Assembly (NCBI RefSeq): GCF_019219825.1
Contig: NZ_JAHUXH010000001.1
Coordinates: forward strand, 434,001 to 498,000
DNA: 64,000 nucleotides
Origin: Streptomyces sp. TRM70350
Lineage (GTDB): Bacteria > Actinomycetota > Actinomycetes > Streptomycetales > Streptomycetaceae
Reading direction: 5' to 3'
Each line of letters starts with the position of its first letter. Positions within the stretch are counted from its first letter, which is position 1. A program made the position numbers and the translations under genes. This document shows, in pieces, positions 4,098 to 25,849 of this stretch. Under the pieces are notes generated by a model, which was not told the DNA's origin, ran no database searches, and saw only the letters and a program-made list of their open reading frames with translations.

Positions 4098-5533
<1,436 letters not shown>

Positions 5534-5537
<4 letters not shown>

Positions 5538-5716
5538 CTCGGACGTATGACGTGGCGGTGGTCGGCGGGCGAGTGGTCGGTTGTGGGATCGCTCGTGAAT
5601 TCGCCCGGTGTCCGCGGCTGCGTATGGCCCTTGCTGAGGTGCGGGAGGATGTCGGTCGGGGCAGTTGCGAGGCCGACATTGTGGTTCGCCGGTTGCTCGG
5701 CGGGGCGTTCGTATGA
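5534..5716 (+). pseudogene. Mini-ORF 1: N-terminal FAD-binding fragment copy
   Basis: A 60-codon open frame matching the first 60 residues of the GlpA-like protein at 6071: the beta-alpha-beta Rossmann unit and nothing more. The dinucleotide motif is altered: GxGxxG has become G-G-R-V-V-G, so FAD binding is doubtful in this copy. Its ATG overlaps the kinase stop, and its stop overlaps copy 2. Whether it makes a peptide or only links the operon's translation is unknown. Confidence 0.75.
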
Positions 5717-5895
5717 CTTGGACGTGTGACGTGGCGGTGGTTGGCGCGGGGGTGGTCGGTTGTGCGATTGCCCGGGAATTCGCCCGGTGTCCGCGGCTGC
5801 GTATGGCCCTTGCCGAGGTGCGGGAGGATGTCGGTCGGGGCAGTTGTGAGGCCGACATTGTGGTTCGCCGGTTGCTCGGCGGGGCGTTCGTATGA
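5713..5895 (+). pseudogene. Mini-ORF 2: N-terminal FAD-binding fragment copy
   Basis: The second 60-codon copy, with an intact GAGVVG dinucleotide motif. It keeps the same length and the same ATGA junctions as its neighbours. The residues after about position 48 (SCEADIVVRRLLGGAFV) replace the parent's SSKANTAILHTGFDA. This is explained by base changes plus a small deletion that brings the stop into frame. Confidence 0.75.
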
Positions 5896-6074
5896 CTTGG
5901 ACGTGTGACGTGGCGGTGGTTGGCGCGGGGGTGGTCGGTTGTGGGATCGCTCGTGAATTCGCCCGGTGTCCGCGGCTGCGTATGGCCCTTGCTGAGGTGC
6001 GGGAGGATGTCGGTCGGGGCAGCTGCGAGGCCGACATTGCGGTTCATCGGCTGTTCGCCGGGATGCCCGTATGA
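5892..6074 (+). pseudogene. Mini-ORF 3: N-terminal FAD-binding fragment copy
   Basis: The third 60-codon copy, intact GAGVVG motif, ending two bases into the full gene's start codon (ATGA). Its final 30 bases align best of the three with the parent gene, apart from a gap of about 2 bp that creates the stop. This makes it the most parent-like end and suggests that the array grew from this side. Confidence 0.75.
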
Positions 6075-7447
6075 CCCGGACCTATGACGTGGCGGTCGTC
6101 GGCGCCGGAGTCGTCGGTAGCGCGATCGCCCGTGAACTCGCCCGGCACCCACAGCTGCGCGTCGCCCTTGTCGAGGCGCAGGACGACGTCGGTCAGGGCA
6201 GCTCCAAGGCCAACACCGCGATCCTGCACACCGGCTTCGACGCGGTCCCCGGCTCGCTGGAGGCACGGCTGGTGCGCGAGGGGGCGCACCTGCTCGCCGC
6301 GTACGCCGCCGAGTCCGGCATCCCCGTCGAACCCGTCGGCGCCCTGCTCGTCGCCTGGGACGAGGAACAGCTCGCCGCCCTGCCCCGCCTCGCCGAGAAG
6401 GCCGAGGCCAACGACTACCACGCCACCCGCCTGCTCGGCCCCACCGCACTGTACGAGCGCGAACCCCACCTCGGCCCCGGCGCGCTCGGCGCCCTGCACG
6501 TACCCGGAGAGTCGATCATCTGCCCCTGGACGACGACCCTGGCGTACGCCACCCAGGCCGTCCGGCACGGAGTCGACCTCCACCTCGACTCCCGCGTGGA
6601 GGGGGTCACTCGTCAGGACGGCACCCATGTGCTGACGACCAGCGGCGGCACCCTGCGGGCCCGCTGGCTGGTCAACGCGGCCGGACTGCACGCCGACACG
6701 CTCGACGCGCGCCTCGGGCACCGCGACTTCACGGTCACCCCGCGCCGCGGCCAGCTCATCGTCTTCGACAAGTTCGCCCGCACGCTGGTCAACCACATCC
6801 TGCTGCCCGTCCCCACCGCACTCGGCAAAGGCGTCCTGGTCGCCCCCACCGTCCACGGCAACGTCCTGCTCGGCCCCACCGCCGAGGACCTGGACGACAG
6901 ACGGGCCACCGGCTCCACCGCCGACGGACTCGCCGCCCTGCGCGCCCAGGGCCGCCGCATCCTCCCCGAACTGCTCGACGAGGAGGTGACCGCCGTCTAC
7001 GCGGGCCTGCGCGCCGCCACCGAGCACGACGACTACCGCATCCGCGCCCACCCCGCCCAGACGTACGTCACCGTCGGCGGCATCCGCTCCACCGGCCTGA
7101 CGGCGTCGCTCGCGATCGCCTCGCATGTCACCGGCCTGCTGACCGAGGCAGGCCTCGACCCGGGCCCCGTCCGGGAGTTGAAGCCGGTGGAGATGCCCAA
7201 CCTCGGCGAGGCCTTCCCACGCCCCTACCAGCGCCCCGACCTCATCGCGGCCGACCCGCAGTACGGCACCCTCGTCTGCCACTGCGAGCGCGTCTCCCGC
7301 GGCGAGATCCGCGACGCCCTCGCGAGTACCATCCCGCCGCGCACCCTCGACGGACTGCGCCGCCGCACCCGCGCCCGGGCGGGCCGCTGCCAGGGCTTCT
7401 ACTGCGGGGCGGCGGTACGGCAGCTGCTGGAGGAGGCCCGGCCATGA
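6071..7447 (+). CDS. GlpA-like FAD-dependent dehydrogenase with BFD [2Fe-2S] domain
   Basis: A 458-residue flavoprotein of the DAO/GlpA type: an N-terminal Rossmann motif (VVGAGVVG, residues 9-16), a central substrate domain, and a C-terminal BFD-like iron-sulfur domain with cysteines in CHCERVSRGEI (about 399-409) and GRCQGFYCGAAV (about 437-448). This is the architecture of anaerobic glycerol-3-phosphate dehydrogenase subunit A. With the upstream kinase and the downstream flavoprotein it would oxidise sn-glycerol-3-phosphate to DHAP. The third partner usual in this type (a small DUF1667 protein) is not present. It overlaps both neighbours by ATGA. Confidence 0.85.
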   Translation: MTRTYDVAVVGAGVVGSAIARELARHPQLRVALVEAQDDVGQGSSKANTAILHTGFDAVPGSLEARLVREGAHLLAAYAAESGIPVEPVGALLVAWDEEQLAALPRLAEKAEANDYHATRLLGPTALYEREPHLGPGALGALHVPGESIICPWTTTLAYATQAVRHGVDLHLDSRVEGVTRQDGTHVLTTSGGTLRARWLVNAAGLHADTLDARLGHRDFTVTPRRGQLIVFDKFARTLVNHILLPVPTALGKGVLVAPTVHGNVLLGPTAEDLDDRRATGSTADGLAALRAQGRRILPELLDEEVTAVYAGLRAATEHDDYRIRAHPAQTYVTVGGIRSTGLTASLAIASHVTGLLTEAGLDPGPVRELKPVEMPNLGEAFPRPYQRPDLIAADPQYGTLVCHCERVSRGEIRDALASTIPPRTLDGLRRRTRARAGRCQGFYCGAAVRQLLEEARP

Positions 7448-8403
7448 CGGACGTACGGCAGGTCGACGTGCTTGTCGTCGGCGCGGGCCCCGCCGGACTC
7501 ACCACCGCCGCCCGGCTGGCTGCCGCCGGGGCGGGCCGGGTGGAGGTGCTGGAGCGGGAGCAGCGGGCGGGCGGAGTGCCACGGCACTGCGCGCACGGCG
7601 GCTTCGGCACCTGGCTGCGTCCGCTGACCGGTCCGCAGTACGCCCGCCTGCTCACCGCCGCCGCCGTACGCGCCGGAGCGGTCGTCCGCACCGGCGTGAC
7701 CGCTCTGGACTGGGCGGGCCCGCTGACCCTGGCGACGGTCGGCCCGCACGGCCCCGAGACGATCACCGCGAGGGCGATCGTGCTGGCCACCGGTGCCCGT
7801 GAACGCCCCCGCAGCGCGCGGCTGGTGCCCGGCACCCGCCCGGCCGGTGTCTACACCACGGGCGAACTCCAGCAGGCGGTCCACCTGTACGAGCAGCCGA
7901 TCGGCAGCCGGGCCGTGGTGGTCGGCGCGGAGGACGTCTCCTACGCGGCCGCGGGCACCGTACGGGCCGCCGGTGCCCGGGTCGTCGCCATGGTCACCGA
8001 CCTGCCCGCCCCACGGACCGCGCCCGCCCGGACCCTCGACGCCCGCCTCCGCCGGGGCATCCCGCTCCTCACCCACACCGGCGTCACCGAACTCCTCGGC
8101 CACGGCCGCCTGTCCGGCGTCCGGGTGCGCCACCGCGACGGCCGTACGACGGTCCTGCACTGCGACACCGTGGTGTTCACCGGCGACTTCGTCCCCGACC
8201 ACGAACTGGCCCGGCGTGGCGGCCTCGCCCTGGACCCCGCCACCCGCGGCCCCGCCGTCGACGGCGCCCTGCGCACCTCACGCCCCGGCGTGTTCGCCGT
8301 CGGCAACGTCGTGCACGCCGTGGAGCGCGCCCCGGCCGTGTCCCGCGAGGGCGTGCGCGCGGCAACCGCGATCTTGTCGGACCTCGGCCTCACTGCTCCG
8401 TGA
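7444..8403 (+). CDS. FAD/NAD(P)-dependent oxidoreductase, GlpA partner
   Basis: A 319-residue pyridine-nucleotide-disulfide-type flavoprotein. Its FAD Rossmann motif is VVGAGPAGL (about residues 10-18), with an ATGARERPR segment near 117 and a second dinucleotide-binding region (VVVGAEDVSYAAA, about 158-170). A conserved C-terminal GVFAVGN motif (about 285) closes the FAD site. The redox-active CxxC of thioredoxin reductases is absent. It overlaps the GlpA-like gene by ATGA and probably forms the NAD(P)-reducing half of that complex. Its last codons sit inside a repeat unit shared with the convergent enoyl-CoA hydratase gene. Confidence 0.8.
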   Translation: MTDVRQVDVLVVGAGPAGLTTAARLAAAGAGRVEVLEREQRAGGVPRHCAHGGFGTWLRPLTGPQYARLLTAAAVRAGAVVRTGVTALDWAGPLTLATVGPHGPETITARAIVLATGARERPRSARLVPGTRPAGVYTTGELQQAVHLYEQPIGSRAVVVGAEDVSYAAAGTVRAAGARVVAMVTDLPAPRTAPARTLDARLRRGIPLLTHTGVTELLGHGRLSGVRVRHRDGRTTVLHCDTVVFTGDFVPDHELARRGGLALDPATRGPAVDGALRTSRPGVFAVGNVVHAVERAPAVSREGVRAATAILSDLGLTAP

Positions 8404-8847
8404 ACATGCCGTGCCGCCCGGCCCTCGCGGTGAAGCGGGCGGCACCGTGCAGGCGGTCGGCTGGCGCGCCGGTGTCGTGGCCTGCGAGGGCGTGTGCGTG
8501 ACCGCCGGCGTGCTGTCGGATGGCGGGTCTCATGGGTCCGTGAACGTGCTGTGCCGCCGGGTCGCCGTGGTGAAGCGGGTGGCGTCGTCCAGGCTCTCGA
8601 CCGGTGTCCTTGTGCCGTGGTCGGGTCTCGGTCTTATTGGTCCGTGAAGGTGTGGTGCTGCCGGGTCGCGGTGGTGAAGCGGGTGGCGTCGTCCAGGTTC
8701 TCGACCGGTGTCCTTGTGCCGTGGTCGGGTCTCGGTCTTATTGGTCCGTGAAGGTGTGGTGCTGCCGGGTCGCGGTGGTGAAGCGGGTGGCGTCGTCCAG
8801 GTTCTCGACCGGCGCTCCGGTGCCGTGGTCAGACCTCGGCCTCATGG
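8397..8847 (-). repeat. Tandem C-terminal echoes of the enoyl-CoA hydratase gene
   Basis: Units start at 8397 (140 bp), 8537 (104 bp), 8641 (104 bp) and 8745 (103 bp), each opening TCCGTGAA(C/G). Read on the minus strand, each encodes a variant of the last ~25 codons of the enoyl-CoA hydratase at 8829, with a stop near the same place: the gene ends ..ARFAAGAGRHGTFTDHEAEV, and the unit at 8641 reads ..DATRFTTATRQHHTFTDQ-stop. Units at 8537 and 8641 are almost identical. The first unit also repeats the end of the plus-strand oxidoreductase. No unit has a start codon or ribosome site. Confidence 0.88.
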
Positions 8848-9605
8848 TCCGTGAACGTGCCGTGCCGCCCGGCCCCCGCGGCGAAGCGGGCGGCGCCCTC
8901 CAGGCTGTCCGTCAGCACGCCCATGCCGTGGCGGAGTTCGCCGCGCATCGCCGCCCGCTCGTCCAGGCCGTCCTGCTCCCGGACCGAGGCGCGGTCGGCG
9001 CGCACGCAGGCCTGGGGGAAGCGGGCGATCGTGGCGGCGAGTTCCTCGGCCTCGGCGCGGGCGCGGCCGGTGGGGACCAGGCGGTTGGCGAGGCCGATGG
9101 CGTAGGCCTCGCGGGCGGGCACCGGACGTCCGGTGAGGATCATGTCCAGGGCGCGGCCGGTGCCGATCAGCCGGGGGAGCCGCACCGTACCACCGTCGAT
9201 CAGCGGGACGCCCCAGCGGCGGCAGAACACCCCGAAGACGGCGTCCTCCTCGGCGACCCGCAGATCGCACCACAGCGCCAGCTCCAGGCCGCCCGCGACG
9301 GCGTGCCCCGCCACGGCGGCGATCACCGGCTTGGTCAGCCGCATGCGGGTCGGCCCCATCGGCCCGTCGCCGTCCTCGGCGACCCGGTTGCCGCGCTCGG
9401 TGCCGATCGCCTTGAGGTCCGCCCCCGCGCAGAACGTGCCGCCCTCACCCCACAGCACCGCCACCCGCGCCTCGTCGTCGGCCTCAAACTCGCGGAAGGC
9501 CGCGGCGAGTTCGGCCGCCGTCGGGCCGTCCACCGCGTTGCGGGCCTCGGGGCGGGCGAGGACGACCGTGGTGACATGCTGCTGACGCTCGACGCGGACC
9601 GGCAT
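8829..9605 (-). CDS. Crotonase-fold enoyl-CoA hydratase/isomerase
   Basis: A 258-residue crotonase-superfamily protein, likely acting on an enoyl-CoA in fatty-acid or aromatic degradation. The oxyanion-hole segments are FCAGADLKAIG (about residues 59-69) and AVAGHAVAGGLELAL (about 97-111), and the LPRLIGTGRALDMILTG signature lies near 138-154. The first catalytic Glu position of classical crotonases is occupied by WCDLRVAEEDAVFG, a typical hydratase/isomerase context. ATG 9605 has a GAAGGGGGCTCCACC leader. The in-frame ATG at 9638 is not needed. The gene's 3' end has been duplicated downstream several times. Confidence 0.87.
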   Translation of the reverse strand: MPVRVERQQHVTTVVLARPEARNAVDGPTAAELAAAFREFEADDEARVAVLWGEGGTFCAGADLKAIGTERGNRVAEDGDGPMGPTRMRLTKPVIAAVAGHAVAGGLELALWCDLRVAEEDAVFGVFCRRWGVPLIDGGTVRLPRLIGTGRALDMILTGRPVPAREAYAIGLANRLVPTGRARAEAEELAATIARFPQACVRADRASVREQDGLDERAAMRGELRHGMGVLTDSLEGAARFAAGAGRHGTFTDHEAEV

Positions 9606-25324: not shown

Positions 25325-25849
25325 TCATCCAGGTCTCCCGGCCGGCTGCGGCCCGGCCGCCAGCGCCGTGTTGGCCACCGGTGTGTGCGGTCGGTCGGCG
25401 GTTTGGGGCCGGGGGCCGGGGGTGCGATCAGCTGCGATTGCATCTCGGCTGCCGGTGGCTGTGGTCGGTTGGCGGTTTCGGGTCGGCTGCCGGGGGTTGC
25501 GATCGTCCGAGGCTCCGGGCCGGCTGCGGGTGGTGGCGATCGTTCGAGGCTCCGGGGTGGGCTGCCGGGGGTTGCGCTCGGTCGGGCTTCGGGGGAGCCT
25601 TTGGACCGCGTCCGCCGCGTGGTCCGCGTGCCCCGCGTCGTCGCCGGGCCGCAGCAGATGCCCGAGGTCGTGCACCAGGCCCGCGACCTGGAGTTCCTTG
25701 TCGGCGGGGCGACTTGGGCGCAGCAGCGCGGCCGTCTGCAGCGCGTGGTCGTGCAGGTCGACCGGGTCGCCGCTGCCCTCAGGGGTGGCCCAGGCGCCGC
25801 GGCAGGCGTACAGCAGATCCGTCAGCTCTTCGACACTGCGCAGCTCCAT
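25325..25849 (-). pseudogene. HD-domain protein, 3' half replaced by repeats
   Basis: The first ~85 residues are a good HD/inositol-oxygenase-like phosphohydrolase start: an early His in LHDHALQTA (about 33-41) and the metal-binding GLVHDLGHLL (about 57-66). After ..DHAADAVQRL the frame runs into Arg/Pro/Thr-rich repeats (RNPRQPTPEPRT.., DRNPRQPTRNRQ..) with no family resemblance. Later metal ligands of the HD fold are missing. The frame stays open for 174 codons because the repeats happen to lack stops. A nine-G run (25861-25869 on the opposite strand) lies next to the ribosome site. Likely a broken gene. Confidence 0.7.
25340..25620. repeat. G/T-rich degenerate direct repeats inside the HD gene's 3' part
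   Basis: Two partial series are visible on the plus strand. GCGATCGTCCGAGGCTCCGG at about 25499 recurs as GCGATCGTTCGAGGCTCCGG about 39 bp later, then decays. Upstream, GGCGGTTT(C/G)GGG(T/C)CGG occurs at about 25396 and 25463, each followed by CCGGGGGT and GCGATC. The tract replaces what should be the second half of an HD-domain gene. Confidence 0.7.

Follow-up and report, generated by a model that had tools for sequence, protein, structure and literature searches.

Chimeric short reading frames bridging a kinase and a GlpA-like oxidoreductase gene in Streptomyces: probable origin by junction-spanning duplication and possible maintenance through ribosome hand-over

The window analysed here, a stretch of 64,000 nucleotides of Streptomyces sp. 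TRM70350 (source genome G000, 8.4 Mb in 153 contigs), contains an operon in which three short open reading frames separate a carbohydrate kinase gene from the full-length gene of a GlpA-like oxidoreductase, abbreviated below as FL. The short frames are referred to as bridge ORFs or minis (m1 to m3), and the features are, in window coordinates:

4098..5537, forward strand: FGGY carbohydrate kinase (GlpK-like; Pfam FGGY_N, FGGY_C), starting at the ATG at 4098, with its stop TGA inside the ATGA at 5534-5537
5523..5533, forward strand: last 11 nt of the kinase before the ATGA, counterpart of the end of each unit (168 + 11 = 179; identities of this tail are given below)
5534..5716, forward strand: bridge ORF m1, 60 codons, with an FL-like head, a kinase-like tail and a broken GxGxxG motif
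5713..5895, forward strand: bridge ORF m2, 60 codons, ATGA at both ends
5892..6074, forward strand: bridge ORF m3, 60 codons, ATGA at both ends, its 3' end nearest to the kinase-derived tail
6071..7447, forward strand: FL, GlpA-like FAD-dependent oxidoreductase with a C-terminal BFD [2Fe-2S] domain (Pfam DAO, Fer2_BFD), its first 168 nt being the counterpart of the unit heads
7444..8403, forward strand: FAD/NAD(P) oxidoreductase partner (Pfam Pyr_redox_2), ATGA-coupled to FL
8404..8841, unstranded: second tandem array of ~104- and 139-bp units, in which the 3' ends of the FAD partner and the hydratase are duplicated together
8829..9602, reverse strand: convergent enoyl-CoA hydratase/crotonase gene (Pfam ECH_1; NCBIfam PRK08259 above cut-off)

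FL fails the NCBIfam GlpA equivalog (119.3 bits, cut-off 552.8); its best NCBIfam model is glycerol3P_ox_II (236.7 against a cut-off of 460), and the best model of the kinase, glycerol_kin, scores under its cut-off. No NCBIfam model reached its cut-off for the kinase, FL or the FAD partner among the matches listed (12 of 12, the best 25 of 33 and the best 25 of 61, respectively), and “GlpA-like” therefore denotes likeness only.

The three 179-bp units (5534-5712, 5713-5891 and 5892-6070) show zero net indels between one another, and TRF reports a single array at 5534-6215 with a period of 179, 3.8 copies and a score of 972, the 0.8 copy being the head of FL. Each of m1, m2 and m3 has 60 codons when read from its own ATG, although the m2 frame reaches 76 amino acids if started at an upstream TTG. 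ATGA occurs at 5534, 5713, 5892, 6071 and 7444, that is, at all five junctions of the operon, and the chain runs kinase > m1 > m2 > m3 > FL > FAD partner with an ATGA at each step. A sequence-only reading of this DNA had described three intact, ATGA-joined 60-codon ORFs within a chain of six coding units, and the coordinates, TRF and the five junctions confirm both descriptions. Per 179 positions, m1 and m2 differ at 12, m1 and m3 at 17, and m2 and m3 at 17, against 52-55 differences between the units and FL. The base composition of the minis is low in C and high in G (41 and 79 of 179 nt in m1). Since the units differ mutually, and since the separately assembled genome of S. spinoverrucosus (G177) has a homologous insert at the same junction, an assembly artefact is an unlikely source of the array.

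Each unit opens with ~56 codons of FL (its first ~168 nt) and closes with ~11 nt from the kinase end and the ATGA. The last 21 nt of m1, m2 and m3 are identical to the kinase tail of the window at 14, 14 and 15 positions, and to FL at 8, 8 and 5; the G177 copy matches its own kinase tail at 17 of these positions and its own FL at 7. A local-alignment test finds the FL head in the window insert (p 0.005) and likewise in the L050 insert, and at p<0.01 is too blunt for the short kinase tail (p 0.74 in the window, p 0.02 at L050, the S. spinoverrucosus locus). Given this agreement with the flanking genes, the units are read as the outcome of a tandem duplication across the kinase/FL junction that would have left both parent genes whole, and we infer a breakpoint at a TCGAC microhomology common to the kinase end and FL. 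The earlier description of the units as N-terminal copies of the GlpA-like gene accordingly holds for the FL-like head and gives way at the kinase-derived last ~11 nt, which make them chimeras.

The nearest relative at the locus among the genomes compared is S. spinoverrucosus NBRC 14228 (G177; L050 = L105), whose FL has 94.5% amino-acid identity to that of the window. An alignment of 101 columns gives 27 derived sites for the G177 copy, 20 of which recur in a G000 mini, and the copy has 80% identity to m3, compared with 66% to its own FL. Because these derived sites are common to both, the founding duplication preceded the divergence from S. spinoverrucosus; the two species go back to one founding event, and further duplication rounds gave three copies in the window lineage. 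The previously suggested alternative of a recent, still neutral expansion can apply at most to the copy number. Among the 392 genomes listed, a match crossing a unit border of the array was seen in G177 alone apart from G000, and a plasmid collection gave zero matches to the array. The G177 copy is frame-shifted, and a GTGA splits it into two ORFs, of 61 and 11 codons, through which FL is reached again; frameshifts in close relatives had been regarded as evidence against retained frames, and one is indeed present, yet the re-cutting restores the chain. Gene conversion between the FL head and the minis was considered because dS against S. spinoverrucosus is raised in the first 56 codons of FL (6071-6238; 0.41, whole gene 0.14). 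At the 17 sites where the G000 and G177 FL genes differ, the minis match the former at 11 and the latter at 5, which is suggestive only.

Junction-spanning duplication appears to have struck twice within 3 kb, once where the reading frame matters and once, at the convergent junction of the FAD partner and the hydratase, where it does not; G177 has only 22 bp at the latter junction and lacks the array. Nearly all changes that separate the two arrays from their parent sequences are C>T, C>G or A>G, read on the forward strand. Amino>keto versus keto>amino changes number 35:4, 36:3 and 32:3 in m1-m3, 8:1, 17:2, 22:2 and 19:1 in copies c0-c3 and 14:2 in d1, copies within one array not being independent. 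This bias is weaker in the G177 copy (30:15), stands at 47:21 in the insert of S. coacervatus (unpolarised) and is absent from the young insert of S. cellostaticus (7:8). Relaxed codon usage alone is insufficient for the hydratase part, where the forward strand is antisense. In G+T content, 5534-6074 and 8404-8841 rank within the top four 200-bp stretches of the window, which also carries a G/T-rich imperfect tandem array with a period of ~37 at 25380-25620, near the 3' end of a reverse-strand ORF. Dense G-rich imperfect tandem arrays with periods of 24-79 lie at 17251-17624 of L067 (G000:C1, within 20 kb upstream of the window).

The comparison covered 198 loci: 17, the best 80 of 330, 100 further regions and the window. 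The 100 regions follow the match order of the FL matches (161 of 392 genomes) as far as G255, except for loci already in the sample and for G121 and G286, which were passed over. Both genes stand in order in 195 loci (L123, L129 and L256 were dropped), of which 175 are distinct. Eight of the 40 longer inserts resemble their own flank, FL head or kinase tail, at p<0.01, with ~1 chance match expected in 80 tests: those of the window, L050, L144, L099, L135, L138, L174 and L231, the first two representing one event. S. cellostaticus (L144) carries a young chimera with kinase tail and FL head both near-identical to their sources and joined at CCGGYTTC, and S. coacervatus (L099) an old, diverged junction-spanning duplication; independent cases of this kind occur in these species and in others. 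Duplication is recognisable only in these 8 of 40 inserts, and most may be of other origin (short tandem repeats are present in L090 and L093), insert sequences being unrelated between species. On the 175-row tree, the bridge state changes at least 10 times on well-supported branches. The kinase-FL gaps of L091 and L126 have a common 33-base repeat-like sequence, which L092 carries in reverse orientation, with the chain intact; within the best 80 of 330 loci this sequence has 8 sites with at most 6 mismatches, in 4 of the 80.

A chain was counted as unbroken when a series of ORFs leads into FL in frame, each start lying inside the NTGA of the previous ORF. The coupled set consists of the distinct loci whose kinase stop lies in NTGA, 157 in number, and leaves out the 18 of 175 that lack NTGA there; this requirement may hide broken loci that later lost their NTGA. 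The chain from kinase to FL is unbroken in 156 of the 157 coupled loci, L217 being the sole exception, and the unbroken loci contain no extra ORF in 131 cases, one in 21, two in 2 and three in 2, giving 25 bridge loci. Among inserts of at least 36 nt, 40 of 41 are unbroken, compared with 18.2 expected when length and order are randomised, and with one insert per sequence cluster the figures are 29 of 30 and 12.9 (P 3e-11). Selection for translational coupling, as proposed by the sequence-only reading, is supported by these comparative statistics. When real intergenic DNA from 21 convergent gaps, in six variants of each, is transplanted into the junction, 59 of 126 cases pass; adding an artificial ATGA to uncoupled loci yields 10 passes in 18 (Fisher test against 40/41, p 1.5e-4).

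If the observed lengths and base composition are kept, an unbroken chain is already expected by chance in 18.6 of the 25 bridge loci and in 35.9 of the 41 in-frame extensions, and the evidence therefore lies mainly in length modulo 3. Among coupled loci, 3 of 157 have lengths with residue 1, the value that breaks the chain, compared with 5 of 18 among uncoupled ones (Fisher p 3e-4); in two of these coupled cases, L050 and L098, an extra overlap rescues the chain. Unique lengths in coupled loci are uneven by residue (28/3/20, p 7e-5); the contrast in unique lengths between coupled and uncoupled loci is not significant (p 0.18).

A Shine-Dalgarno (SD)-like site precedes some in-frame FL start in 15 of 157 coupled and 11 of 18 uncoupled loci (p 1.5e-6), or in 14 of 157 and 11 of 18 when a single FL start is tested. 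The rarity of such sites in coupled loci suggests that translation of FL in these species probably depends on ribosomes supplied by the kinase. According to PMC10666635, a distance of ~20 nt is enough for coupling to be nearly lost in E. coli and H. volcanii, and an insert should therefore be tolerable only when translation runs through it into a terminal overlap. These observations lead to the main reading, to which a probability of roughly 0.7 is given: at the bridge ORFs, selection would keep the hand-over of ribosomes from kinase to FL, and not the peptides. The proposed course begins with a tandem duplication ending in the kinase tail and at FL codon ~56, which would copy the ATGA junction, so that the chimera begins with the FL start codon and ends with the kinase stop codon while both genes stay whole; in the window lineage the unit was later multiplied to three. 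Since the ribosomes that translate FL probably come straight from termination at the kinase stop, the insert would have to be translated and to pass ribosomes on through its 4-nt overlaps. Chain-breaking inserts would be removed by selection, and the peptides, judging from their pattern of change and from the frameshift in the sister species, would drift with no function of their own.

The most serious alternative is that the units are neutral debris: duplications are tolerated as the genes stay whole, and in high-GC DNA, with its few stops, frames remain open unselected. The peptide changes fall in the neutral range (see below), openness by composition alone is common (one unit stays open after 50 substitutions without indels with a probability of 0.38-0.47), and a similar array has formed at the non-coding convergent junction at 8404-8841. 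Against this stand the excess of unbroken inserts when length is free, the near absence of residue 1 from coupled loci and the failure of transplanted intergenic DNA about half the time, which make the neutral account unlikely.

The chain rule recurs one junction downstream. From FL to the FAD partner, 88 of 90 loci are unbroken, 8 of them with a bridge ORF, and among inserts of at least 29 nt without N, 18 of 19 pass compared with 7.9 expected (P 8e-7); the chain fails in L125 and L126. L126, the one locus where this chain continues in another frame, has an FL-FAD gap of 789 bp with a low-complexity G-rich repeat insert and an N run. At the methyltransferase > GGDEF/EAL junction of the window (51536), 61 of 61 loci have the 4-nt overlap and zero inserts (60 of 277 matching genomes, mostly close ones, plus the window). 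Inserts of at least 36 nt thus occur in 41 of 157 loci at kinase > FL and in 0 of 61 here (p 4e-7), and look like a hotspot of the FGGY kinase/FL operon; as all 61 loci are free of inserts, this third junction bears on the hotspot and not on the chain rule.

A different kind of selection would produce the same sequence pattern: open frames could hold ribosomes on the mRNA and so protect it from Rho-dependent polarity, instead of delivering a reinitiating ribosome to FL. It predicts the stop-free cover of inserts just as well, and the minis are indeed C-poor and G-rich. Protection from Rho is nevertheless quite improbable, given that gaps of 26-286 nt persist in the uncoupled loci, of which 11 of 18 have an SD-like site, and that exact 4-nt overlaps recur, even a frameshift having been repaired by a new GTGA in L050.

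Selection for the 60-residue Rossmann-like peptides themselves, as cofactor-binding molecules or regulatory decoys, is very improbable. The nonsynonymous share of changes is 0.63, 0.58 and 0.61 for the three minis, inside the simulated neutral range (mean 0.66, lower 5% bound 0.574), and m1 has lost a glycine of the GxGxxG motif (GAGVVG > GGRVVG), which m2 and m3 retain as GAGVVG. The sister species has no conserved peptide, its copy being frame-shifted, and the inserts of other species are unrelated. The earlier suggestion that the FAD/NAD-binding peptides are selected is not supported by these points. In its favour, m3 is still DAO-like (Pfam DAO, E 7e-6, 26.2 bits, just under the gathering score of 27.9), and simple dN/dS is 0.40-0.55 for mini versus FL. 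Among the minis it is 0.21-0.58 on few changes, so the comparison of synonymous and nonsynonymous change between units agrees with neutrality in the share and allows weak constraint in the ratio; the values against FL leave room for the latter.

A dispersed mobile repeat of the type of the mycobacterial interspersed repetitive units (MIRUs), with a chance resemblance to FL, is a scarcely credible origin for the insert, even though MIRUs couple at the same -4 nt spacing (PMC12548453) and the gaps of L091, L126 and L092 do share a repeat-like sequence. Within its own genome the mini peptide has no match at E<=1e-6 beyond the array and FL (24 of 24 candidates scored), and the ends of the units agree with the adjoining kinase and FL sequences.

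If bridge ORFs are kept for ribosome hand-over, selection for this process becomes visible in sequence, and the 41 insert loci between the same two genes, 40 of them chain-intact, amount to a natural experiment on translational coupling. Translated, probably functionless ORFs could then persist in operons, which bears on the annotation of small proteins and on de novo gene birth. This significance is limited by the known MIRU case and by the insert-free methyltransferase > GGDEF/EAL junction. It is tempting to go further and to regard duplications across coupled junctions as a repeated source of new small genes in the operons of Streptomyces: such genes would be “born coupled”, translated from the first generation and held open by selection on the downstream gene, with the peptide free to vary. 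This generalisation is tentative, with the odds leaning somewhat against it; if true, coupled-junction duplications would be a nursery for de novo operon genes.

The closest known parallel is that of MIRUs, described in PMC12548453 as repeats that insert at gene starts with an internal ORF coupled at -4 nt, gene expression surviving the insertion. The units described here likewise carry an internal ORF that bridges its neighbours at -4 nt; whereas MIRUs are, in that account, dispersed and apparently mobile, the present units are a local chimera of the flanking genes found at their own junction only, and insert sequences at this locus vary between species. Short ribosome-delivering ORFs offer a second likeness, as their proposed role is the translation of the next gene and not the peptide (PMC12548453), but the bridge ORFs lie inside an operon between two genes and would derive from duplication of the junction. 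The locus further resembles ATGA/GTGA termination-reinitiation coupling in that every junction has a 4-nt overlap and FL mostly lacks an SD-like site; it differs in that the known pairs are real genes, whereas the links here are non-conserved ORFs with putative reinitiation. In eukaryotes, tandem duplication across gene borders creates chimeric genes that join the head of the downstream gene to the tail of the upstream one and leave both neighbours whole. The bacterial chimera differs from these in being born with a coupled start and stop, and in showing no clear sign of a protein function. No report of bridge ORFs from junction-spanning duplication was found in the open-access literature searched. 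The working principle, a coupled bridge ORF, is thus already known from MIRUs, and what the Streptomyces operon would add is a new origin for it, by duplication across the junction of the two genes that it connects.
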